Shown here piece by piece: positions 50,288-59,120 of a DNA stretch of 64,000 bases. Numbering within the stretch: the stretch's first letter is position 1; every line of letters begins with the position of its first letter. Made by a program: the position numbers and the translations under genes. Location: NCBI GenBank assembly GCA_903882665.1, contig CAIRXW010000014.1, forward strand, positions 1 through 64,000. The letters run 5' to 3'. Source of the stretch: an uncultured Chlorobiaceae bacterium. GTDB taxonomy: Bacteria; Bacteroidota; Chlorobiia; Chlorobiales; Chlorobiaceae. The notes under the pieces were generated by a model. It was not told the DNA's origin. It saw nothing but the letters and a program-made list of their open reading frames with translations, and made no database searches.

Positions 50288-51243
50288 CTCTGTTTCCTGT
50301 TTTGTTTCGGTTCTTCCATGATGGTGATCGTGTAGGGGTCGATAATGGCATTGACGATGGTGCTGCCGGGTTTAATGATTACTCCCGGCAGGAGGACTGA
50401 GTTTTTTATGGTACATCCCGCCCCGATGGTGCATCCCGCTCCGATGACGGAACGGGTGAGCGTCGCATCGGGGCTGATGAGCGCGCCAGGAGAGATCGAA
50501 TGCGGAGAGAGGCCAATTGCGAAATGCATTGGTTCGGAAAGGGTGTTCATCGCGGCGTTTGCATCAATATTTGCGAGCCAGTAGTTCTGCATGGTTCCAA
50601 TGTCCATCCAAATGCCGTCGTGCTGGTAAAAGCTTAAGCCTCCGTTATCAATAAGTCCTGTAAAGCCGGTGTCGACAATTCCAGAAAATTCAGCTTTCAT
50701 AAAACGGAATATTTTTGGACTCAGAATTGCAGCTCCTGTATAGATGAATGAGGAGAGAAGGCCGGTGTGGCGCAGGTTTCTGAAGTCTTTTACCAAACCA
50801 TTTTCAACACCCACATACCCTATGGTGGCAGCTTCCGGTGTTTCAAAAAGCGCAAGCGTACCACCGCATCCGGAGCCCAGATGCTGCTGCACGAGTGCAT
50901 TAAAGTCAATATCGGTAATAATATCGCTGTTGACCAGAATAAAATCATCTTCACCGAGAAGTTTCTCACATTTCTTCAGTCCTCCCCCTGTGCCGAGAAT
51001 AACCGGCTCTTCTGAAAACGTGATGTTCAGCCCGGAAAGTTCGCTTGATTCGATACTTCGTCTGATGGCACTGCCGTGATGATGGATATTGCAGATAATC
51101 TCTCGTATTCCAGCCTGTTTCAACAAAAAAAAGGTATAAAAGAGGCTCGGAATATTGAAAACAGGGATCAGTGGTTTTGGAGTATGATCGGTCAAGGGAG
51201 CCAGACGGGTTCCGAGACCTGCGGCCAGGACAAATGCTTTCAT
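50284..51243 (-). CDS. murU: Sugar-1-phosphate nucleotidyltransferase, MurU-like
   Basis: A 319-residue NTP transferase. Nucleotide-binding motif AAGLGTRLAPLTDHTPKPLI at residues 7-26 region, then GTGGGL, VNSDIITDIDF and GIWMDIGTMQ. A left-handed beta-helix-like tail (about 245-310) has SISPGALISPDATLTRSVIG. By sequence it could be a mannose- or glucose-1-phosphate enzyme; the adjacent AmgK-type kinase and NamZ favour MurU, which makes UDP-MurNAc. Overlaps of 4 bp with both neighbours show an operon. Confidence 0.82.
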   Translation of the reverse strand: MKAFVLAAGLGTRLAPLTDHTPKPLIPVFNIPSLFYTFFLLKQAGIREIICNIHHHGSAIRRSIESSELSGLNITFSEEPVILGTGGGLKKCEKLLGEDDFILVNSDIITDIDFNALVQQHLGSGCGGTLALFETPEAATIGYVGVENGLVKDFRNLRHTGLLSSFIYTGAAILSPKIFRFMKAEFSGIVDTGFTGLIDNGGLSFYQHDGIWMDIGTMQNYWLANIDANAAMNTLSEPMHFAIGLSPHSISPGALISPDATLTRSVIGAGCTIGAGCTIKNSVLLPGVIIKPGSTIVNAIIDPYTITIMEEPKQNRKQR

Positions 51244-52244
51244 TGCCCGGTTCCTTCAAGGAGTGTCTGCAGGAGTTTTCCTGCTCTTTTCAGTTCGACT
51301 CTTGCGTCAATGTAATCGGGCAGATAGGCTAATGTCGGCGCAATCGAGTGCTCAAAGTTGTGGTTTCTGGCTATTCTGGTCTGGTAACAAAAGGTGCCAA
51401 TCGCCTTGATGTTGCGCTGAAAGGCCATGATATCGAAATAAAAGAGGTATTCGTCGAAGCTCATGCTGGTCAGTTCGTTGCTGGAGAGTGCGTGGTAGTG
51501 GTGTGCTTTCAGTTCATCGGTCAGCGACGGGTCAAGCTGGACATAGGAATCTTTTATCAGGGAGACTGCGTCGTATTGTGGCAGACCCATGCGAGCATCC
51601 TGAAAGTCAATAATTACAGGCTTGTTATGATGAATAAGGATATTGCGGCTGTGAAAATCGCGATGGTTCAGCACGAAGTGCTGTGGCCTGACAAGGAGCT
51701 CGGCAATGGTTTCAAACTCATATCGCAGTATCGAGATCAATTCCTTGTCGAAAGATGGTGCAAAGTAGTCAAGCAGGCCATACTGGATAAAGAAATCAAA
51801 TTCCATCATGAGCTTTTCTTTATCAAAGCTGATGCTGAAGGGGATCTGGTCGTTGTGTCCCCTTATTGCCTGAAGCTGTACAAGAATATCGATAATCTCC
51901 CTGTACCGGTCAGGAAGAGTTTGCTCTCTTGATGAATTGAAGAGGTTCTGCAAGAGCAGATCTCCGCAATCTTCAAGAAGCAGGAGGTTTTTTTCGGCAT
52001 CAATGGCCATGATTGCCGGAACAGGAAGAGCGTGCCGTGACAAGAGTGTATGCACGAGCAGAAAGGGATAGGTGTCGGCCGAGGAAGTGTTCAGTGCCTG
52101 ATCATAACAGGCGACAGCCGAGCCATTCGTTCCTGTAACCCTGAAATACTGACGGCTTGAAGCATCGCCCTGAATTTTTGTAATGGAAAGTGGCTTGCTG
52201 CAACAGTTGCTGAAGAGAGCCGCGATATTTTTCTGGATGGTCAT
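51240..52244 (-). CDS. amgK: AmgK-like anomeric MurNAc/GlcNAc kinase
   Basis: A 334-residue phosphotransferase of the APH/choline-kinase fold. AmgK landmarks are QGDASSRQYFRV at the N-terminus, LLLEDCGDLLL in the hinge, catalytic NHRDFHSRNILI and metal-binding IIDFQDARMGLPQYDAVSL. AmgK phosphorylates MurNAc at C-1, feeding MurU and bypassing the early Mur steps. It is the first gene of the amgK-murU-namZ-symporter run, with 4-bp overlap to murU. Confidence 0.86.
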   Translation of the reverse strand: MTIQKNIAALFSNCCSKPLSITKIQGDASSRQYFRVTGTNGSAVACYDQALNTSSADTYPFLLVHTLLSRHALPVPAIMAIDAEKNLLLLEDCGDLLLQNLFNSSREQTLPDRYREIIDILVQLQAIRGHNDQIPFSISFDKEKLMMEFDFFIQYGLLDYFAPSFDKELISILRYEFETIAELLVRPQHFVLNHRDFHSRNILIHHNKPVIIDFQDARMGLPQYDAVSLIKDSYVQLDPSLTDELKAHHYHALSSNELTSMSFDEYLFYFDIMAFQRNIKAIGTFCYQTRIARNHNFEHSIAPTLAYLPDYIDARVELKRAGKLLQTLLEGTGQ

Positions 52245-52276
52245 ACGGCAACTTCGGAAAATCTTTTGCGGAAAAC

Positions 52277-52317
52277 AAAAAAAGCACCCAGTACCGAATG
52301 TACAAGGTGCTTTTTTT
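52277..52317. terminator. Bidirectional terminator between csm-like gene and amgK
   Basis: AAAAAAAGCACC (52277-52288) pairs with GGTGCTTTTTTT (52306-52317); GTAC inner arms extend the stem. On the minus strand it ends the chlorosome-protein transcript. Confidence 0.9.
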
Positions 52318-52330
52318 GCGAAAAAAATGC

Positions 52331-52558
52331 TTACTTCCTGGGAGCAAAAGCGGCAGAAACGCTCTGCAACACCTGGTTCAGTGCGCCAATGATGCTGGTG
52401 GCAAGATCGGTAGCCGTTTTGCCAAGAGGTTCAATAAGCCCTGCGGCTGTCTTGATCCCGCCGGTCAGTAAGTCAATCTGCTGCTGGGCAAGTTTCCCAA
52501 GTGTCTCGATGAGGTTGGTGACTGCGCCTGATACGTCATTGCTTGTTCCGTTTGACAT
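52331..52558 (-). CDS. Chlorosome envelope protein, CsmB/CsmF family
   Basis: A 75-residue protein with the length and features of the CsmB/CsmF chlorosome envelope proteins: start MSNGTSNDVSGAVTNLIETL, central hydrophobic/amphipathic helix region, EPLGKTATDLATSIIG, and end VSAAFAPRK. These proteins sit in the lipid monolayer around the bacteriochlorophyll core. The exact paralogue (CsmB or CsmF) was not decided. A TATAAT -10 lies at 52609-52604. It sits beside pigment genes characteristic of brown species. Confidence 0.88.
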   Translation of the reverse strand: MSNGTSNDVSGAVTNLIETLGKLAQQQIDLLTGGIKTAAGLIEPLGKTATDLATSIIGALNQVLQSVSAAFAPRK

Positions 52559-52926
52559 GGCTTTTCAGTGTTTTTGGTTATTGGAAAAGAGTGCTTTTGA
52601 CAAATTATATTCCGCTATTTTTCAGCGTATATTTTGCATTAATTTAAGACATTTACCATTGCAGAGCAAATAGAAAAAAGGTCTGCAGGCCGGGGGGTGG
52701 CTGAGCTGTTGCTGTGCTGGTTAACAGGAGTTGGCGTCGCATTGGTCTGCAAAAAAAACTCTTATATTGGACGTGCAGGCGTGGCGCTGCCTGTAACGCG
52801 GTTATTATTTTTTCTGATTCAGGTGATGTTGTATTTTTTTTATCAATCTACACGGTAGCTCAATACGAAAAAAATCAAGAAGAGAGATGAAGAGTTGAGT
52901 TGCTGTATCGTTTAAATTATACAAAT
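52559..52926. other. 368-bp divergent intergenic region
   Basis: Between the CsmB/F-like gene (minus) and the flavodoxin fusion (plus). It contains the TATAAT of the former and a CAGGC...GCCTG stem near 52776-52793 without terminator features. No gene was recognised. Confidence 0.5.
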
Positions 52927-53553
52927 ATGAAGGCCATCATTTTATACGACAGCAGATCGTCAAATGGTTCTACTGAGGCGGTCATCGATGCCATAGGGCT
53001 GGGGTTGGTGGAAGCCGGTTTTTATGTGGAAAAAGCAAAATGCAGGGCGACGGCGGACTACAGTTTTGTCAAGGATTTTGATCTTGTTATTCTTGGCGCG
53101 CCGGTTTACTATTTTGTTGTTGCTTCGCAGCTTTTGGGGGCTTTGATCCATGGAAACCTGAAAAAAAATCTTAAAAGGAAAAAGATTGCCCTCTTCCTGA
53201 CATGCGGAAGTTCCCAGTCTACTGCAGCAGTGCTTTATCTGCCGCAGTTGAAAATTCACTTGATCCGCAATAAAATTCTTGCTGAAAAAATTTTTTTGCC
53301 ATCGGTTCTTTCAGATGGCGATGCTCTTGAGTTGTTTGTTGAAGATGTTCTTCATCAGTACAATAAAAGCCTGAAATCCAGAGCGTTGTCGGCGAAATGG
53401 ACCAACGAGGCCCAGGAATGGTTTCAGTCCATGCCCTCTTTTATGCAGGGGAAGTTCAGGACAATGGCTGAAGAGTACGCCGAGGAAATGGGATATAAGG
53501 AGATTACCCTTGCAGTGCTTGAAGAGGCGCGCGATACCCTTGGCGGTACATAG
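52927..53553 (+). CDS. Flavodoxin-like protein fused to PCP_red domain
   Basis: A 208-residue fusion. Residues 1-150 form a flavodoxin fold: AIILYDSRSSNGSTEAVIDA has the FMN phosphate loop position, FDLVILGAPVYYFVVASQLL the second loop, and ALFLTCGSS the third. Residues about 157-208 match the PCP_red domain found at the C-terminus of the BchB/ChlB subunit of dark protochlorophyllide reductase (WTNEAQEWFQSMPSFMQGKF, then EEYAEEMGYKEITLAVLEEA). The ATG at 52927 is preferred to the upstream TTG. Being in the bciD-cruB neighbourhood, an electron-donor role in bacteriochlorophyll synthesis is a reasonable inference; activity is unknown. Confidence 0.8.
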   Translation: MKAIILYDSRSSNGSTEAVIDAIGLGLVEAGFYVEKAKCRATADYSFVKDFDLVILGAPVYYFVVASQLLGALIHGNLKKNLKRKKIALFLTCGSSQSTAAVLYLPQLKIHLIRNKILAEKIFLPSVLSDGDALELFVEDVLHQYNKSLKSRALSAKWTNEAQEWFQSMPSFMQGKFRTMAEEYAEEMGYKEITLAVLEEARDTLGGT

Positions 53554-53611
53554 TGGTGAACCAACCGCGCCAATAACGGCGAATGGCAAGGGTTTTGTTG
53601 CGGATTTCTTC

Positions 53612-53737
53612 TCATTTTACGCTTTTATTGGCAGAGTGTTTGCCGATAAACTTGTTCAGAAGAATGACGATCGTAATGCCCGAGAAGAAAAAGAGTACAG
53701 GGGCGAAGAGCGATGTGTAGCGGGTGAATTCTTGCAT
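53612..53737 (-). CDS. Small single-span membrane protein
   Basis: A 41-residue frame, 29 bp downstream of bciD on the same strand. Sequence starts MQEFTRYTSLFAPVLFFFSG and continues ITIVILLNKFIGKHSANKSVK, giving one membrane helix (about residues 9-28) with a basic C-terminus, so an N-out or N-in single span. The frame is intact from ATG (53737) to TGA (53614-53612). The ribosome binding site is weak. Function unknown; it may belong to the bciD transcript. Confidence 0.55.
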   Translation of the reverse strand: MQEFTRYTSLFAPVLFFFSGITIVILLNKFIGKHSANKSVK

Positions 53738-53766
53738 GGTTGCTGGTCTGGATGGTTTATGGATAT

Positions 53767-55152
53767 TTATTTTCTGAGGTTGTTATTGCGTTCAAAGGTC
53801 TCAAGCTGTTCAGCGATGTTTTTTCTGAATGCAAGGCTTGTGATGAGATTAAGAAATTTATAGGGATTTTTTCTTACCCTGTTTGCAATATTTTTCCATG
53901 AATAGGCCTTGTAGTAACTCGACAGGAATTTGTGCTGAAAAGCAACAGGTTCATATTTTGCGGAGTGGATAACAAGATTGGATGCGTTGTATTTTTCCCA
54001 GTCGTAGTCGGTGATCAACCCTTTTTTTGTGTACTCCAGGAACATTTTTGTTCCTGGATAGGGGGTGATGATCTGAAAAATCGGCATAAAAACGTTGTTT
54101 TTGCTGACAAACTGCACCAGATCATCCATGTCTTCAAAACTGTCAAGATCCGGGTTTATCAGGAAATTTCCCTGTATGTTCAGGCCCGCTCGCCGGCACT
54201 CATCAATAACCCTCTTGAATGTATCGGCGGAATTGACGTGGCCTTTATTGTAAGCCTCAAGGGAGCTTTGTTTTATGGACTCGAATCCAACCAGCACCAT
54301 GAGGCATCCTGAGTCGACCAGCCGTCTGACCGTCTCCTGGTCTTCAAGAAAATTCATGCTGAAGAAAACACTGTAATTGATGTTGCATCCTTTCAGGAGT
54401 TCAAGTGCTTCCCAGAGTTTTTTCTTGTTGATGCCAAGGTTTTCGTCGCAAAGCATGAACCATGGTTTTGATGCCCTTCGTGTTTTTTTGAAAAACACCT
54501 CTTTTGCGGTTTCAATCTGTTTTTTCAGCTCTTCAGGATCCTGTGTCCGATAGAGTTTTCCTGTAAAATTCGGTGTAACACAAAATGAGCACTCAAAGGG
54601 GCAGCCGCGAGTGACATAGATCGGTATTGATTTTGTTCCGTCAATTTTTCCCCGCTTTGAAGATTTTGCAATCCTGACATAATCAAGAGCGGCTATTTTT
54701 GTTACTGGCGGAAAATCAAGAGCGTTGTAGAGTGGTTTCAGGCGATTGCCGGAGGCATCTTCCAGAACGGTACTCCAGAGGTTTTCGGCCTCTCCGCAAA
54801 CAATGCTGTCGGCATGGGCCTGTGCTTCATCCGGGTTGAAGGAGACATGCAGGCCGCCGAGTATGACTTTTTTGCCCTGTTGGCGAAAGCGGTCGGCAAT
54901 TTCGTATGCTCTCGATGCATCGATGGTTCGTGACGTTATACCGATAAGGTCATACTCTCCGTCATAGTCTATTTGGTCATTGAAGTGTTCGTCAGCAATT
55001 TCGATATCATACTCTTTCGGTGTTATGCTTACAAGAACACCAATTGCCATATTGAACAACGGTTGCTGGTTGCTTTTCGAGTCTTTTTTTCCCTTGGGTG
55101 CAATCAAAAGCAGCTTAAAGGGTTTTCTGTGTTGAAGAGCAGTTTGTCCCAT
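53767..55152 (-). CDS. bciD: Radical SAM enzyme, probable bacteriochlorophyllide d C-7 oxidase BciD
   Basis: A 461-residue radical SAM enzyme. The N-terminal 150 residues form a Rossmann-like domain resembling cobalamin-binding modules ([48 protein letters not shown]), but a DxHxxG cobalamin signature is not seen. The 4Fe-4S site CPFECSFC (CxxxCxxC) lies near residue 195. The ATG at 55152 is preferred to a TTG at 55188. BciD converts the C-7 methyl to formyl in bacteriochlorophyll e synthesis and is typical of brown species. The name rests on family type plus the adjoining CruA/CruB-type cyclase and chlorosome genes; BchQ/BchR-like or other radical SAM roles cannot be fully excluded. Confidence 0.78.
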
Positions 55153-55388
55153 GATCAAGTTTGTCGTTAAACCAAAGGCAGGTTTCAATGAACAGTGGCT
55201 TGCTGCTCATGACTTTTTCGATGAGTTGCCGTTTGCTGGTGGTATGCAATCTGCACGTGAAATTACAAATTTCTATCAGCTTTAAAAGCGTTTTCATGAT
55301 GGGTGAACTCCTGGAGCTTCTCTTTTTTTTTGGTTACATTACTCAGGTGCAGAGTGAACGATGGAGAGCGTCGGGAGTTTAAGGCGTT

Positions 55389-57023
55389 TTGACGGAGAAG
55401 GAAGAAGGTGTAAATTTACCTTTTATTTGCAACGGTTCTTTTAACTGGTATTTGCTGCTTATGGGACTCGAACAGGTACGTCAGACGCATCCGCTCGTTT
55501 ATAAGCACTTCAGCAGGCTCAATGATGGGCAAAAACATTTTGAGCAAATCCTTGAAATAGATCGCTATTGGGATCAGGTCAACAGTGGCGTTTGTCTGGA
55601 CGTGGTTTTTGATGGTGAGATGATGCCGAAAGGCGTCGTGATCAGCGGAGAGTATGATATTGTTTATGCAGGGGGAGCTCTGGCTCTTTTTCATGCTGCG
55701 ATTATGGCTGAAAAGTATCAGCGCCCGGTTCTTGTTTTTGACAGGAATGTTCCCGGAAAGTCAACACGTGACTGGAATATATCGAGGAGTGAGCTGAAAA
55801 ATCTGGAGGAGACGGGGGTTTTTTCACCAGAAGAGATTGAGCGCAGTATCGTCTGCCGTTATAAAACCGGCTGGGCCGAATTTTTTGTTGAAGATAGCCG
55901 GAAAAAAAGACTCTATCTCAATAATGTGCTTGATTGTGCGGTTGATGCCGATAAACTGCTGAATCTTGCAAAACAAAAAATTCTTGCTGCTGCCGGCAAT
56001 CAGGTTTTAAGTTGCCTTACCTTTAAACGGTGCTTTCAGTTTCCGGGTCATGTTGTTGTTGAAGTTGAAGATAGGGAGCATGAAAAATTCTACTATAAAG
56101 CACTGCTTCTGGCCGATGCCATGGGCGTCGCATCTCCTGTTGCCCGGCAGTTGAATCATGGACGCCCTCAGACTCATGTTTGCCCGACGGTTGGTACTCT
56201 TGCCTCCGGTCTGGAGGGTGTCGATGAAGAGATTGGCGAAATACTTGTCAGCATTGAGCCGGCAGATCACAGTTCCGGAAATGGCCGTCAGTTAATCTGG
56301 GAAGGGTTTCCTGCCGGAAAAAAGCAGTATACGACCTACCTCTTTTTTTATGACTCTCTTGATTCGGGTAACGACAAGAGTCTTCTCGGGCTGTTTGAGA
56401 CCTATTTCACGAAACTTCCCTCATATAAAAATCCGGGAGCTGATTTTGTGATTCACCGGCCGGTTTTTGGCATTATCCCGGCATATTTTCATGATGGTTT
56501 TACCCTGGTTCGTGAAGTTGCCGCTGACAATATTCTCATGATCGGTGATGCAGCCGCTCTTGGTTCACCGTTGACTTTTTGTGGCTTTGGCTCTTTTGTT
56601 CGTAACATCAAGTCATTGACTACCGGGCTGGAATATGTTTTGCAAAGTGGCCAACTGGAGAAAGGGAATCTTGAGCGGGTGAGCGCCTATGAGCCCAATG
56701 TGGCCAGCATGGCAAACCTCATGAAGTATATGTGCTACTGTAAAAAGACCGATAGCCGCAACTTTGTCAATGAAATGATGAATGAAGTCATGATCGTGCT
56801 CGATCGTCTTCCGCCCCGTTATCGTGAATCACTGTTCCGCGATACCATGGATCTTGCCGACCTCTTCGTTGTCGGTGTTCATGTTGCCTGCGGCTATCCT
56901 GGAATTTTAAGGGCGACGGTCAGCAAGCTTGGTTTGCATGGATCGATTGGTATGATGAAGAATATGATTGGTTGGGCCCTCTCGCGGAAATCCATAAAAA
57001 GACGATATTTTTTTAATCCTTAA
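55389..57023 (+). CDS. cruB: CruA/CruB-type lycopene (gamma-carotene) cyclase, probable CruB
   Basis: A 544-residue flavoprotein-like enzyme. A dinucleotide-binding region is modified (YDIVYAGGALALFHAAIMA), and a second motif reads NILMIGDAAALGSPLTFCGF, as in CruA-family cyclases. CruA/CruB close the ends of lycopene or gamma-carotene. In brown Chlorobium species CruB forms the second ring needed for beta-carotene and isorenieratene; divergence from bciD favours CruB. A TTG start at 55389 with TAAGG upstream is used; an ATG at 55461 (MGLEQVRQTHP) is an alternative. It reads divergently from bciD and leads into the CsmC-like gene 13 bp away. Confidence 0.78.
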   Translation: MTEKEEGVNLPFICNGSFNWYLLLMGLEQVRQTHPLVYKHFSRLNDGQKHFEQILEIDRYWDQVNSGVCLDVVFDGEMMPKGVVISGEYDIVYAGGALALFHAAIMAEKYQRPVLVFDRNVPGKSTRDWNISRSELKNLEETGVFSPEEIERSIVCRYKTGWAEFFVEDSRKKRLYLNNVLDCAVDADKLLNLAKQKILAAAGNQVLSCLTFKRCFQFPGHVVVEVEDREHEKFYYKALLLADAMGVASPVARQLNHGRPQTHVCPTVGTLASGLEGVDEEIGEILVSIEPADHSSGNGRQLIWEGFPAGKKQYTTYLFFYDSLDSGNDKSLLGLFETYFTKLPSYKNPGADFVIHRPVFGIIPAYFHDGFTLVREVAADNILMIGDAAALGSPLTFCGFGSFVRNIKSLTTGLEYVLQSGQLEKGNLERVSAYEPNVASMANLMKYMCYCKKTDSRNFVNEMMNEVMIVLDRLPPRYRESLFRDTMDLADLFVVGVHVACGYPGILRATVSKLGLHGSIGMMKNMIGWALSRKSIKRRYFFNP

Positions 57024-57036
57024 ATGAAGAATGATC

Positions 57037-57390
57037 ATGGCAAAAGATGAAAAAAAAGGCGGATTTTTTTCCCGGTTCAAAAAAAGTGATGCCTCTTCCC
57101 AGGAGGAGCCTGCTATAAAAGCAGCAACGACGCCGTCATCCCAGGCGCAAAGCCGCACTGTTGCGGCCTCATCTGGAAGCGCTGCACTGCCTAAAGCAGC
57201 AGTTGCTCAGGAGCAGGTCGAGGATTCAGCACTATCGGAGCCCCTTATTGATACCGTTGAAGCCTTCAATGTCTATTGCAGCTCTCTCGTTGATATTGGC
57301 ACCTCGCAGTTGAAGATTGTTGAGATGGTATGCGGTATGTTATCCAATTCAATCAATAAAATTCTTGATGGCTCTGCCAAAAAAGAGTAG
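57037..57390 (+). CDS. Chlorosome envelope protein, CsmC/CsmD-like
   Basis: A 117-residue protein. The N-terminal third is Lys/Ser/Ala-rich and charged (MAKDEKKGGFFSRFKKSD), the middle Ala/Ser-rich, and the last 50 residues contain the helix VEAFNVYCSSLVDIGTSQL and VCGMLSNSINKILDGSAKKE. The pattern fits CsmC/CsmD chlorosome envelope proteins. ATG at 57037 is one of two close Met codons (57031, 57037). It starts 13 bp after cruB and would be cotranscribed. Confidence 0.7.
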   Translation: MAKDEKKGGFFSRFKKSDASSQEEPAIKAATTPSSQAQSRTVAASSGSAALPKAAVAQEQVEDSALSEPLIDTVEAFNVYCSSLVDIGTSQLKIVEMVCGMLSNSINKILDGSAKKE

Positions 57391-57471
57391 ATCGCCGGCT
57401 TCGTTTTTTTTCGATAAGGCTTTCATAGCTTAGAGATGACCTGTTTGTCAAGAGTGTAAACAAGAATTTTT

Positions 57472-57729
57472 ATGTCTGATAATCAACCGCACCTGTTACC
57501 GGAAGGAGTTCTCAAGCCAGCAGCAGCAATTGTCAGCGGGGCATTTCTTCTCTCCCCCCTGGGGATTCCGTTCTTTGTTCGAGGCGTGCCACGGATATTG
57601 CTTGCTGGCCTTGGTGGTTTTCTGGCAGGAAAAGTGGCGGACAAGGTTGCTGGCAAGTTTGCTGAAAATTTGGGACAGGTTATGCAGCAAAGGGCGGAGG
57701 AGCATGATTCAGGAACTCTCTATCCGTGA
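57472..57729 (+). CDS. Small hydrophobic protein of chlorosome cluster
   Basis: An 85-residue protein of unknown function. The core is Gly/Ala-rich and hydrophobic (AAAIVSGAFLLSPLGIPFFV, then ILLAGLGGFLAGKVADKVAG), which allows two short helices or a hairpin. C-terminal QRAEEHDSGTLYP is polar. It lies 81 bp after the CsmC-like gene and 65 bp before the next. A membrane or envelope-associated role is possible by analogy with neighbours only. Confidence 0.65.
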   Translation: MSDNQPHLLPEGVLKPAAAIVSGAFLLSPLGIPFFVRGVPRILLAGLGGFLAGKVADKVAGKFAENLGQVMQQRAEEHDSGTLYP

Positions 57730-57794
57730 TGAGCGTTTGAAGGCTTCATGACTCTTTATCTGGATTTCGTGTCCTCAATTTTTTTCGTACATCA

Positions 57795-58418
57795 ATGGAA
57801 GTTGTTGGTAAAAGTAAAGCACATGTCGTTCTTGACTCTTGTTTTCATGAATCGATTCTCTATTTTTCGGATCATGAAAAGCTGCTGAAGTGTAATCCTT
57901 ATTGCAGTAACGTCAAGTATTTAGTGGATCTCGGTATTTTTCAGTGGATTTTTCAGGTGGCCGATCCCCGAAACAATCCAATTACTGCGGTATTTTTTGT
58001 CCGCCAACTGGAGGAGGCGTTTTCGTTTGATGACAGTTATGGCCAGCAGTTGGCTGCCAGGGTGCAAAACAGGGCACACCTCAATGGTCATGGAAAGCGG
58101 ATTCGCTGGGAAGCGGTTCACGATCATCCTGAGGTTGAGCGGCTCTCTCCACACACCTTCATAGGGCAGGCCAGTTCTGAAATTTGCCTGCTGCATCAGC
58201 ATGATGGCCGGACATCGGTCTATTTTGATACCGATATTGCTCTTGATTTTGACCTCTCTTTTCCCCTGAATCTTATGCCGGAGGGTATACTCCGCTTTAT
58301 GACCGAAGCGGTCATGTCGCAGATCATGCAGCAGGCCACAGAAAGTATGCTCTGTCAGGTTCAGTCAGATATCTGCTGCACGGCGGCTGAACTTGTTGTA
58401 GAGGGCGGAAAAAAATAG
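57795..58418 (+). CDS. Conserved hypothetical, SRPBCC/DUF1997-like
   Basis: A 207-residue soluble protein. N-terminal pattern FHESILYFSDHEKLLKCNPY followed by WIFQVADPRNNPITAVFFVR, and the C-terminal FPLNLMPEGILRFMTEAVMS helix, resemble DUF1997/SRPBCC-type lipid- or pigment-binding folds. Three cysteines occur near the C-terminus (SMLCQVQSDICCTAAEL). It follows the small hydrophobic gene by 65 bp. Assignment to the fold is tentative; no function is known. Confidence 0.55.
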   Translation: MEVVGKSKAHVVLDSCFHESILYFSDHEKLLKCNPYCSNVKYLVDLGIFQWIFQVADPRNNPITAVFFVRQLEEAFSFDDSYGQQLAARVQNRAHLNGHGKRIRWEAVHDHPEVERLSPHTFIGQASSEICLLHQHDGRTSVYFDTDIALDFDLSFPLNLMPEGILRFMTEAVMSQIMQQATESMLCQVQSDICCTAAELVVEGGKK

Positions 58419-58481
58419 GGCAGGGATTGCCTGTTATAGTGGTGTGAAGAAATCAGCAAAACCGTAAGGAATGCAAATCGC

Positions 58482-59120
58482 ATGATTGTTGAACAGTTTC
58501 GTACAGGCGGCGACAGGAACTTCGGTTACCTTGTTGCCGATGAGCTTACCAGGGATGCTCTGGTTATTGACGCCTCTTTCAATCCTTCCATGATTGTCCG
58601 GTTTGCCGTTGAACGGGGTTTTGTGATCCGTTATCTATTTTCAACCCATGGCCATGACGATCACACCAATGGCAATGAAGCCATCAGGCTGATGACCACT
58701 CTTTCCCCCCTGCTTTATGGTGATACCTGTCCCCGGACTGGTATTACCGTCGAAGATGGGGCCCTTTTTCCTCTTGGCTCTCTTGAAGCCCGTATTCTCC
58801 ATACGCCTGGGCATACAAGGGATTCTATCTGCATTCATGTTGGCCATGCTCTTTTTACCGGCGACACCCTTTTTACGGGAAAGGTGGGGGGAACCGGCAG
58901 TGAAGAGCAGGCACGTGATGAATTCCTCTCGCTGCACAAACTCATGCTGCTTCCCGGAAAGACCGTACTTTATCCAGGACACGATTACGGCGTGTCGCCC
59001 GTCTCCTCCATCAGTACAGAGCTTGCGTCCAATCCCTTCCTGCTTCAAAAGGATTTCAATGCTTTTCTTGCCCTGAAACAAAACTGGGCGGCCTATAAAA
59101 AAACGCATGGAATTGCATGA
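58482..59120 (+). CDS. MBL-fold hydrolase (glyoxalase II/persulfide dioxygenase-like)
   Basis: A 212-residue metallo-beta-lactamase protein. Metal ligands in THGHDDHTNG (HxHxDH), HTPGHT, FTGDTLF and YPGHDYG are all present. Length and motif set fit the hydroxyacylglutathione hydrolase-like group, which also includes thiol and persulfide enzymes. In a sulfur oxidiser a sulfur-related substrate is conceivable, but sequence does not decide. The gene follows the DUF1997-like gene by 63 bp. Confidence 0.88.
   Translation: MIVEQFRTGGDRNFGYLVADELTRDALVIDASFNPSMIVRFAVERGFVIRYLFSTHGHDDHTNGNEAIRLMTTLSPLLYGDTCPRTGITVEDGALFPLGSLEARILHTPGHTRDSICIHVGHALFTGDTLFTGKVGGTGSEEQARDEFLSLHKLMLLPGKTVLYPGHDYGVSPVSSISTELASNPFLLQKDFNAFLALKQNWAAYKKTHGIA

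Follow-up and report, generated by a model that had tools for sequence, protein, structure and literature searches.

A bchQ-cruB gene pair without bciD at the brown-island site of an uncultured Chlorobiaceae bacterium

The stretch of DNA analysed here (the window) comprises 64,000 nucleotides of contig CAIRXW010000014.1 from an uncultured Chlorobiaceae bacterium (assembly GCA_903882665.1), and at 51240–58418 it carries a block of genes in which a B12-binding radical S-adenosylmethionine (SAM) gene and a carotenoid cyclase gene are transcribed divergently. A first-pass annotation had read the pair as a bciD-cruB cluster marking a brown organism that makes bacteriochlorophyll (BChl) e. The cyclase is indeed CruB, whereas the radical SAM enzyme is an ortholog of BchQ, and the block is probably a partly decayed copy of the brown pigment island at its home site (csmB to the DUF1997 gene), in which bchQ and cruB have been kept and a bchF/bchV-like gene and bciD have been lost. 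The features of the block, including each relevant open reading frame (ORF), are as follows.

51240..52244, minus strand: amgK-like kinase of the APH family (Pfam APH, NCBIfam AmgK-like); left border, with the same neighbour order across Chlorobiaceae
52331..52558, minus strand: CsmB/CsmF-like chlorosome envelope protein of 75 residues; left edge of the pigment site, an ORF named by resemblance only
52927..53553, plus strand: fusion of a flavodoxin-like and a PCP_red (BchB C-terminal type) domain, here flavPCP (Pfam PCP_red 2.4e-15, Flavodoxin_5 1.4e-6)
53767..55188, minus strand: bchQ, B12-binding radical SAM protein; predicted to act as C8(2)-methyltransferase on the side chains of BChl c/e, 67% identical to CT1777
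55189..55460, no strand: divergent gap between bchQ and cruB, where full islands place a bchF/bchV-like gene and bciD
55389..57023 (ORF), plus strand: cruB, predicted cyclase of gamma-carotene in the isorenieratene pathway; ATG 55461 is the probable start
57031..57390, plus strand: 119-residue protein (p119), weakly CsmC/CsmD-like; also in genomes without cruB
57472..57729, plus strand: 85-residue small protein (p85), an ORF found in several relatives without cruB
57795..58418, plus strand: DUF1997 protein (Pfam DUF1997 just below the cut-off); right border of the conserved site

The ORF layout agrees with the divergent arrangement of the radical SAM and cyclase genes as first annotated. The start then given to the cluster, 53612, lies ~155 bp downstream of the stop codon of the radical SAM gene, which ends at 53767. 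As the block around cruB is kept in six other species-level genomes, its layout is not a product of chance.

Identity of the divergent gene pair

The radical SAM protein contains B12-binding (PF02310) and radical SAM (PF04055) domains in Pfam, and it shares both domains, as well as 67% identity over 450 residues, with its C. tepidum counterpart. The latter is encoded a few genes away from a RuBisCO-like protein that matches 1TEL/1YKW over all 435 residues, a neighbour by which the C. tepidum copy was placed at CT1777, and a bchF-like gene (bchV, CT1776) stands beside it. CT1777 is the BchQ of C. tepidum. BchQ has been described as a C8 methyltransferase (PMC7242693). The window radical SAM gene is a bchQ ortholog of CT1777, for which C8(2)-methyltransferase activity is predicted, and only one close BchQ copy is present in the window genome. 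The two orthologs differ in their setting, since window bchQ adjoins cruB in the brown-island site, whereas that of C. tepidum lies beside bchV and an aldolase gene. Members of the BchQ family occur throughout the Chlorobiaceae at 64–79% identity, and their presence in green species contradicts the notion of a brown-only gene. BchR and BchE, two further candidates, were rejected, as they form separate families in the genome (matches of ~30% and ~27%, respectively).

A tree of 53 cyclases, with other Chlorobiales as the root, divided the Chlorobiaceae sequences into CruA (support 100/97) and CruB (99/97). The CruB clade holds the window cyclase and six sequences close to it (87–95% identical; the core of what is here called the window clade), together with sequences from the brown C. 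phaeovibrioides BrKhr17, the Chlorobaculum HyVt-633 bin, P. luteolum CIII and two bins with DeepCast in their sample names. This position among CruBs of brown organisms rules out CruA and bears out the earlier naming of the cyclase as CruB, for which a gamma- to beta-carotene conversion is predicted. A separate CruA (L008), 60% identical to window CruB, is encoded on a different contig, where it has a lolD-type ABC transporter gene and ligA as neighbours. In its phylogenetic placement and its coexistence with CruA, the window protein resembles the CruB gamma-carotene cyclase as described in papers that cite Maresca et al. 2008; it departs from the published co-occurrence in that window cruB is found without bciD. 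The CruBs of the window clade form a long separate branch that is not nested in a donor, and they are 61–66% identical to the known CruBs (61% in the comparison of window CruB with that of Chlorobaculum (Cba.) limnaeum). The cyclase start at ATG 55461 aligns with other CruB starts. Pairwise ratios of non-synonymous to synonymous substitution rates (dN/dS) for cruB within the window clade are 0.10–0.14, about 0.12 across seven species, and the gene is under purifying selection. A review (PMC11269200) gives CruB the ring-aromatising step, whereas other papers describe it as a gamma-carotene cyclase.

BrKhr17 has been reported to hold bciD, bchF3 and cruB as one cluster, and on its cruB contig a 402-residue radical SAM ORF lies next to a BchF-like gene. 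The product contains AKVTVNK, a stretch also encoded by the inner primer that was published for Cba. limnaeum bciD, and relatives of it are present in 9 of 86 Chlorobiaceae genomes at 86–93% identity (one being a fragment where its contig ends); a conservation above 86% has been published for BciD. The primer-encoded stretch, the linkage to cruB and a bchF-like gene and the degree of conservation thus identify the 402-residue protein as BciD. The window radical SAM protein has no BLAST similarity to it (best alignment to BrKhr17 BciD 17 bits, E 1.0). A search of the window genome (G000, 99.88% complete) returned 0 BciD matches at E 1e-20, and BciD is absent from every window-clade genome. The name bciD was consequently withdrawn from the radical SAM gene, which falls outside BciD, and the idea that the organism is brown and produces BChl e fell with it.

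Copy number of bchQ varies among the relatives. The genome presumed to be that of Cba. limnaeum contains two, one in the island (L188, 13706–15139) and one in the C. tepidum-type place (L206, 9208–10731), and the island copy is a candidate contributor to the high C8 methylation of this organism. The island bchQ of P. luteolum CIII (L014, 1203–2611) is split into two ORFs by a frame break or an assembly error, and the other CIII bchQ is intact. Two close bchQ-family copies ~3 kb apart occur in several Chlorobium genomes (L198, L251; also G056, G059 and G092). The near-complete Chlorobium genomes G063, G066 and G069 have no close bchQ at all, and C8 methylation may be absent in them.

Contents of the site in relatives

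The region beside the amgK-like gene was compared in ~60 genomes, most of the relatives being metagenome bins, and no Prosthecochloris genome was recognised among the compared sets. A recurring frame was found, of the order amgK-csmB-(variable interval)-DUF1997-CsoR-TolC-MFP-RND-MBL-CBS-FrdA. The interval is empty in C. tepidum, Cba. parvum, C. luteolum and strain N1, and many other Chlorobium have flavPCP there, accompanied usually by p119 and at times by p85. In the window clade it reads flavPCP-bchQ-cruB-p119-p85. The full brown content is seen in P. luteolum CIII (L014) as flavPCP-bchQ-bchF/V-bciD-aldolase-cruB-p119-p85-SDR-FrhB, where SDR denotes a short-chain dehydrogenase/reductase, and in G017, taken to be Cba. 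limnaeum (L188), as bchQ-bchF/V-bciD-cruB. The window thus shares with these BChl e/isorenieratene islands the chromosomal site and the bchQ and cruB families, and with CIII also the small flanking genes p119 and p85; it differs from the islands of Cba. limnaeum, CIII and BrKhr17 (bciD, bchF2/F3, cruB) in the absence of bciD and of a second bchF/bchV between bchQ and cruB. The link to a transferable brown-type island that had been drawn from the window therefore stands as regards the site, and fails as regards these two genes. In BrKhr17 the native site is empty and the island is located elsewhere, as expected for transfer, and for CIII and brown C. phaeovibrioides the literature documents that the island was transferred. 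The G+C fraction of bchQ (0.437) and of cruB (0.466) is below that of the window (0.495).

Genomes that carry one half of the island were found in both directions. Seven window-clade genomes from lakes (G000, G070, G072, G075, G078, G083 and G095), four of them at >=99% completeness, have cruB without bciD; G063, whose contig ends just before cruB, was also counted here, and G090, an eighth window-clade genome, has the same bchQ at the site on a contig that ends before cruB. The converse, bciD without cruB, is seen in G080 (100% complete), G094 (99%) and G101 (86%), to which G089 with a truncated bciD may be added. The loci of the first three (L189, L190 and L191) carry bciD, a bchF/V-like gene and bchQ, the interval in G080 being flavPCP-csmB-bchF/V-bciD-bchQ-p119-p85, and these organisms are predicted to make BChl e with chlorobactene. 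Published surveys describe bciD and cruB as occurring together and restrict isorenieratene to the brown green sulfur bacteria with BChl e. The observed gene content, cruB without bciD, departs from this, and the predicted green cell with the carotenoid of brown ones is a combination taken in these surveys not to occur. Parsimony counts of gain and loss (6 changes for cruB, 7 for bciD) were not relied on, as G090 was scored cruB-positive though its contig ends before the gene, and as transfer of the island breaks the model.

Ancestry of the block and predicted pigments

Proteins of the island were compared by tblastn (E <0.01) with the corresponding loci of cruB-negative relatives. Besides one intact bchQ and one SDR paralog, four short matches were obtained: cruB residues 390–410 in G068, cruB residues 34–79 with an in-frame stop in G060, and C-terminal pieces of bchQ in G047 and G074. 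All four lie directly downstream of flavPCP in the expected orientation, and between flavPCP and p119 where p119 could be placed. With reversed queries the search produced 0 hits, and with ten sets of shuffled queries 3 in total. G068 and G060 belong to the same 12-genome clade as the window, and G074 lies outside it, in a tree that does not include G047. The positions of the remnants and this clade membership imply that cruB was at the site before the window clade arose, and the presence of bchQ there probably predates a wider group. In L010, which belongs to the window clade, only the last 59 residues of bchQ are left; in L011 and L012 bchQ is gone from the site. Remnants of cruB and bchQ at the expected place in relatives are indicative of a decaying ancestral island, and it is on this basis that we consider the block likely to be what remains of a brown island, the bchF/bchV-like and bciD pair that stands between bchQ and cruB in full islands having presumably been lost rather than never gained.

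Several observations weigh against this interpretation. No remnant of bciD or bchF/V was detected by tblastn in the bchQ-cruB gap of the window, so that loss of the pair in the window lineage is deduced from its relatives only. In the best BchQ tree, window BchQ groups with the other island BchQs (12 rows) at a support of 45/13, and a constrained tree that places it among the ordinary Chlorobium BchQs is hardly worse (p-AU 0.48); rooting on BchR gave an overly long branch. An origin shared by window bchQ and the other island copies is accordingly not claimed. Of 12 positions diagnostic of CruB versus CruA, 8 are CruB-like in the window clade, 3 differ from both and 1 is CruA-like. CrtU was not positively identified in the window genome, where one 643-residue amine-oxidase-family protein is a candidate only, and the pigments of the window clade are predicted from its genes alone.

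Among the alternatives, it is unlikely that cruB and bchQ came together by horizontal transfer, without bciD, into the ancestor of the group instead of being kept from a brown ancestor. The documented mobility of the island in CIII and brown C. phaeovibrioides, its displaced position in BrKhr17 and the low G+C of both genes would fit such an event; in opposition, the remnants of cruB (G068, G060) and bchQ (G047, G074) put these genes at the site outside the window clade, Cba. limnaeum uses the same site, and the long CruB branch is not nested in any donor. The genes may thus have been transferred into the common ancestor of the 12 genomes that form one clade with the window, rather than inherited more deeply, though with the low probability just given. 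That window-clade CruB no longer serves as the second cyclase for isorenieratene, and either duplicates CruA or acts on another carotenoid, is quite improbable: its 61% identity to the Cba. limnaeum protein, the divergent diagnostic positions and the departure of its usual partner bciD point that way, whereas its fully supported place within the CruB clade, purifying selection in seven species and the additional presence of CruA point to a retained function. It is most improbable that bciD is present and was missed through assembly gaps or binning, even though the related genomes are metagenome bins and the G063 contig breaks just before cruB, because in the window, L013, L086 and L009 cruB directly neighbours bchQ on a continuous stretch of DNA that leaves no space for bciD, and the seven genomes with window-type cruB lack it, four of them at >=99% completeness. 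The original reading as a bciD-cruB cluster of a BChl e producer, for which the CruB identity and the island site would speak, is scarcely tenable with a radical SAM gene that is bchQ and a genome of 99.88% completeness from which BciD is absent.

Under the interpretation of a partly decayed island, BchQ would add methyl groups to the C8 ethyl group of bacteriochlorophyllide d/c, and this may yield a BChl c that is strongly methylated and red-shifted, as would suit dim light. CruA would close the first ring, and CruB would form the second beta ring on gamma-carotene, from which the aromatase CrtU could make isorenieratene. As bchU is present in the window genome (TIGR02716, 1.9e-146; match to PDB 1X19), BChl c is expected as the main pigment. 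The window organism is thus predicted to contain BChl c (or d), not BChl e, together with isorenieratene or beta-isorenieratene, i.e. to be a green cell with a brown-type carotenoid. A parallel is offered by the bciD mutant of Cba. limnaeum, which has a green colour and whose BChl c is rich in 8-isobutyl homologs (PMC3613366). In this knock-out (Harada et al. 2013) cruB is presumably intact and bciD inactive, with BChl c in place of BChl e, as predicted for the window; the window state differs in being natural and evolutionarily stable in seven species, and in that the bchF/V-like gene is gone too. The second bchQ in the Cba. limnaeum island may contribute to the abundance of isobutyl homologs in the BChl c of the mutant, an abundance that the authors of the mutant study credited to substrate preference.

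With moderate confidence, we further propose that a freshwater clade makes isorenieratene without BChl e and that other lineages do the opposite, such that the brown trait would consist of two modules, both derived from a brown ancestor and lost singly at one site. A brown ancestor was proposed by Grouzdev et al. 2022, as that work is cited in PMC10158934, and this proposal can be tested directly on genomes that hold a single half of the island at that site and on relatives in which traces of the absent gene persist. If the pigment prediction is true, isorenieratane in sediments would be less closely tied, as a biomarker, to brown bacteria with BChl e, and alone would not demonstrate such cells.

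Flanking genes

The CsmB/F-like gene noted earlier near the pair corresponds to the 75-residue ORF, which adjoins amgK in nearly all compared loci, C. tepidum included; no Pfam model matched its product, and neither Pfam nor NCBIfam gave names to the 75-, 85- and 119-residue proteins. The gene described as CsmC/D-like after the cyclase exists as the 119-residue ORF, although the resemblance is weak: there are zero Pfam matches even at E 10, and profile matches reach E 0.005 in the genome taken as Cba. parvum and E 0.04 in C. tepidum, the latter in an ORF whose inner methionine yields a 113-residue Csm-like protein. The ORFs at 57472 and 57795 and the PCP_red fusion, assigned to the same block, are all real; that at 57795 (DUF1997) is not brown-specific, being a Chlorobiaceae core gene (82 of 86 genomes). 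In most relatives DUF1997 is followed by a CsoR-TolC-MFP-RND efflux cassette, which the window (58418–58482), L013 and L086 lack. The flavPCP gene is absent from the site in C. tepidum and Cba. parvum and common there in Chlorobium, green types included, with many of the genomes that carry it having neither cruB nor bciD at this site.

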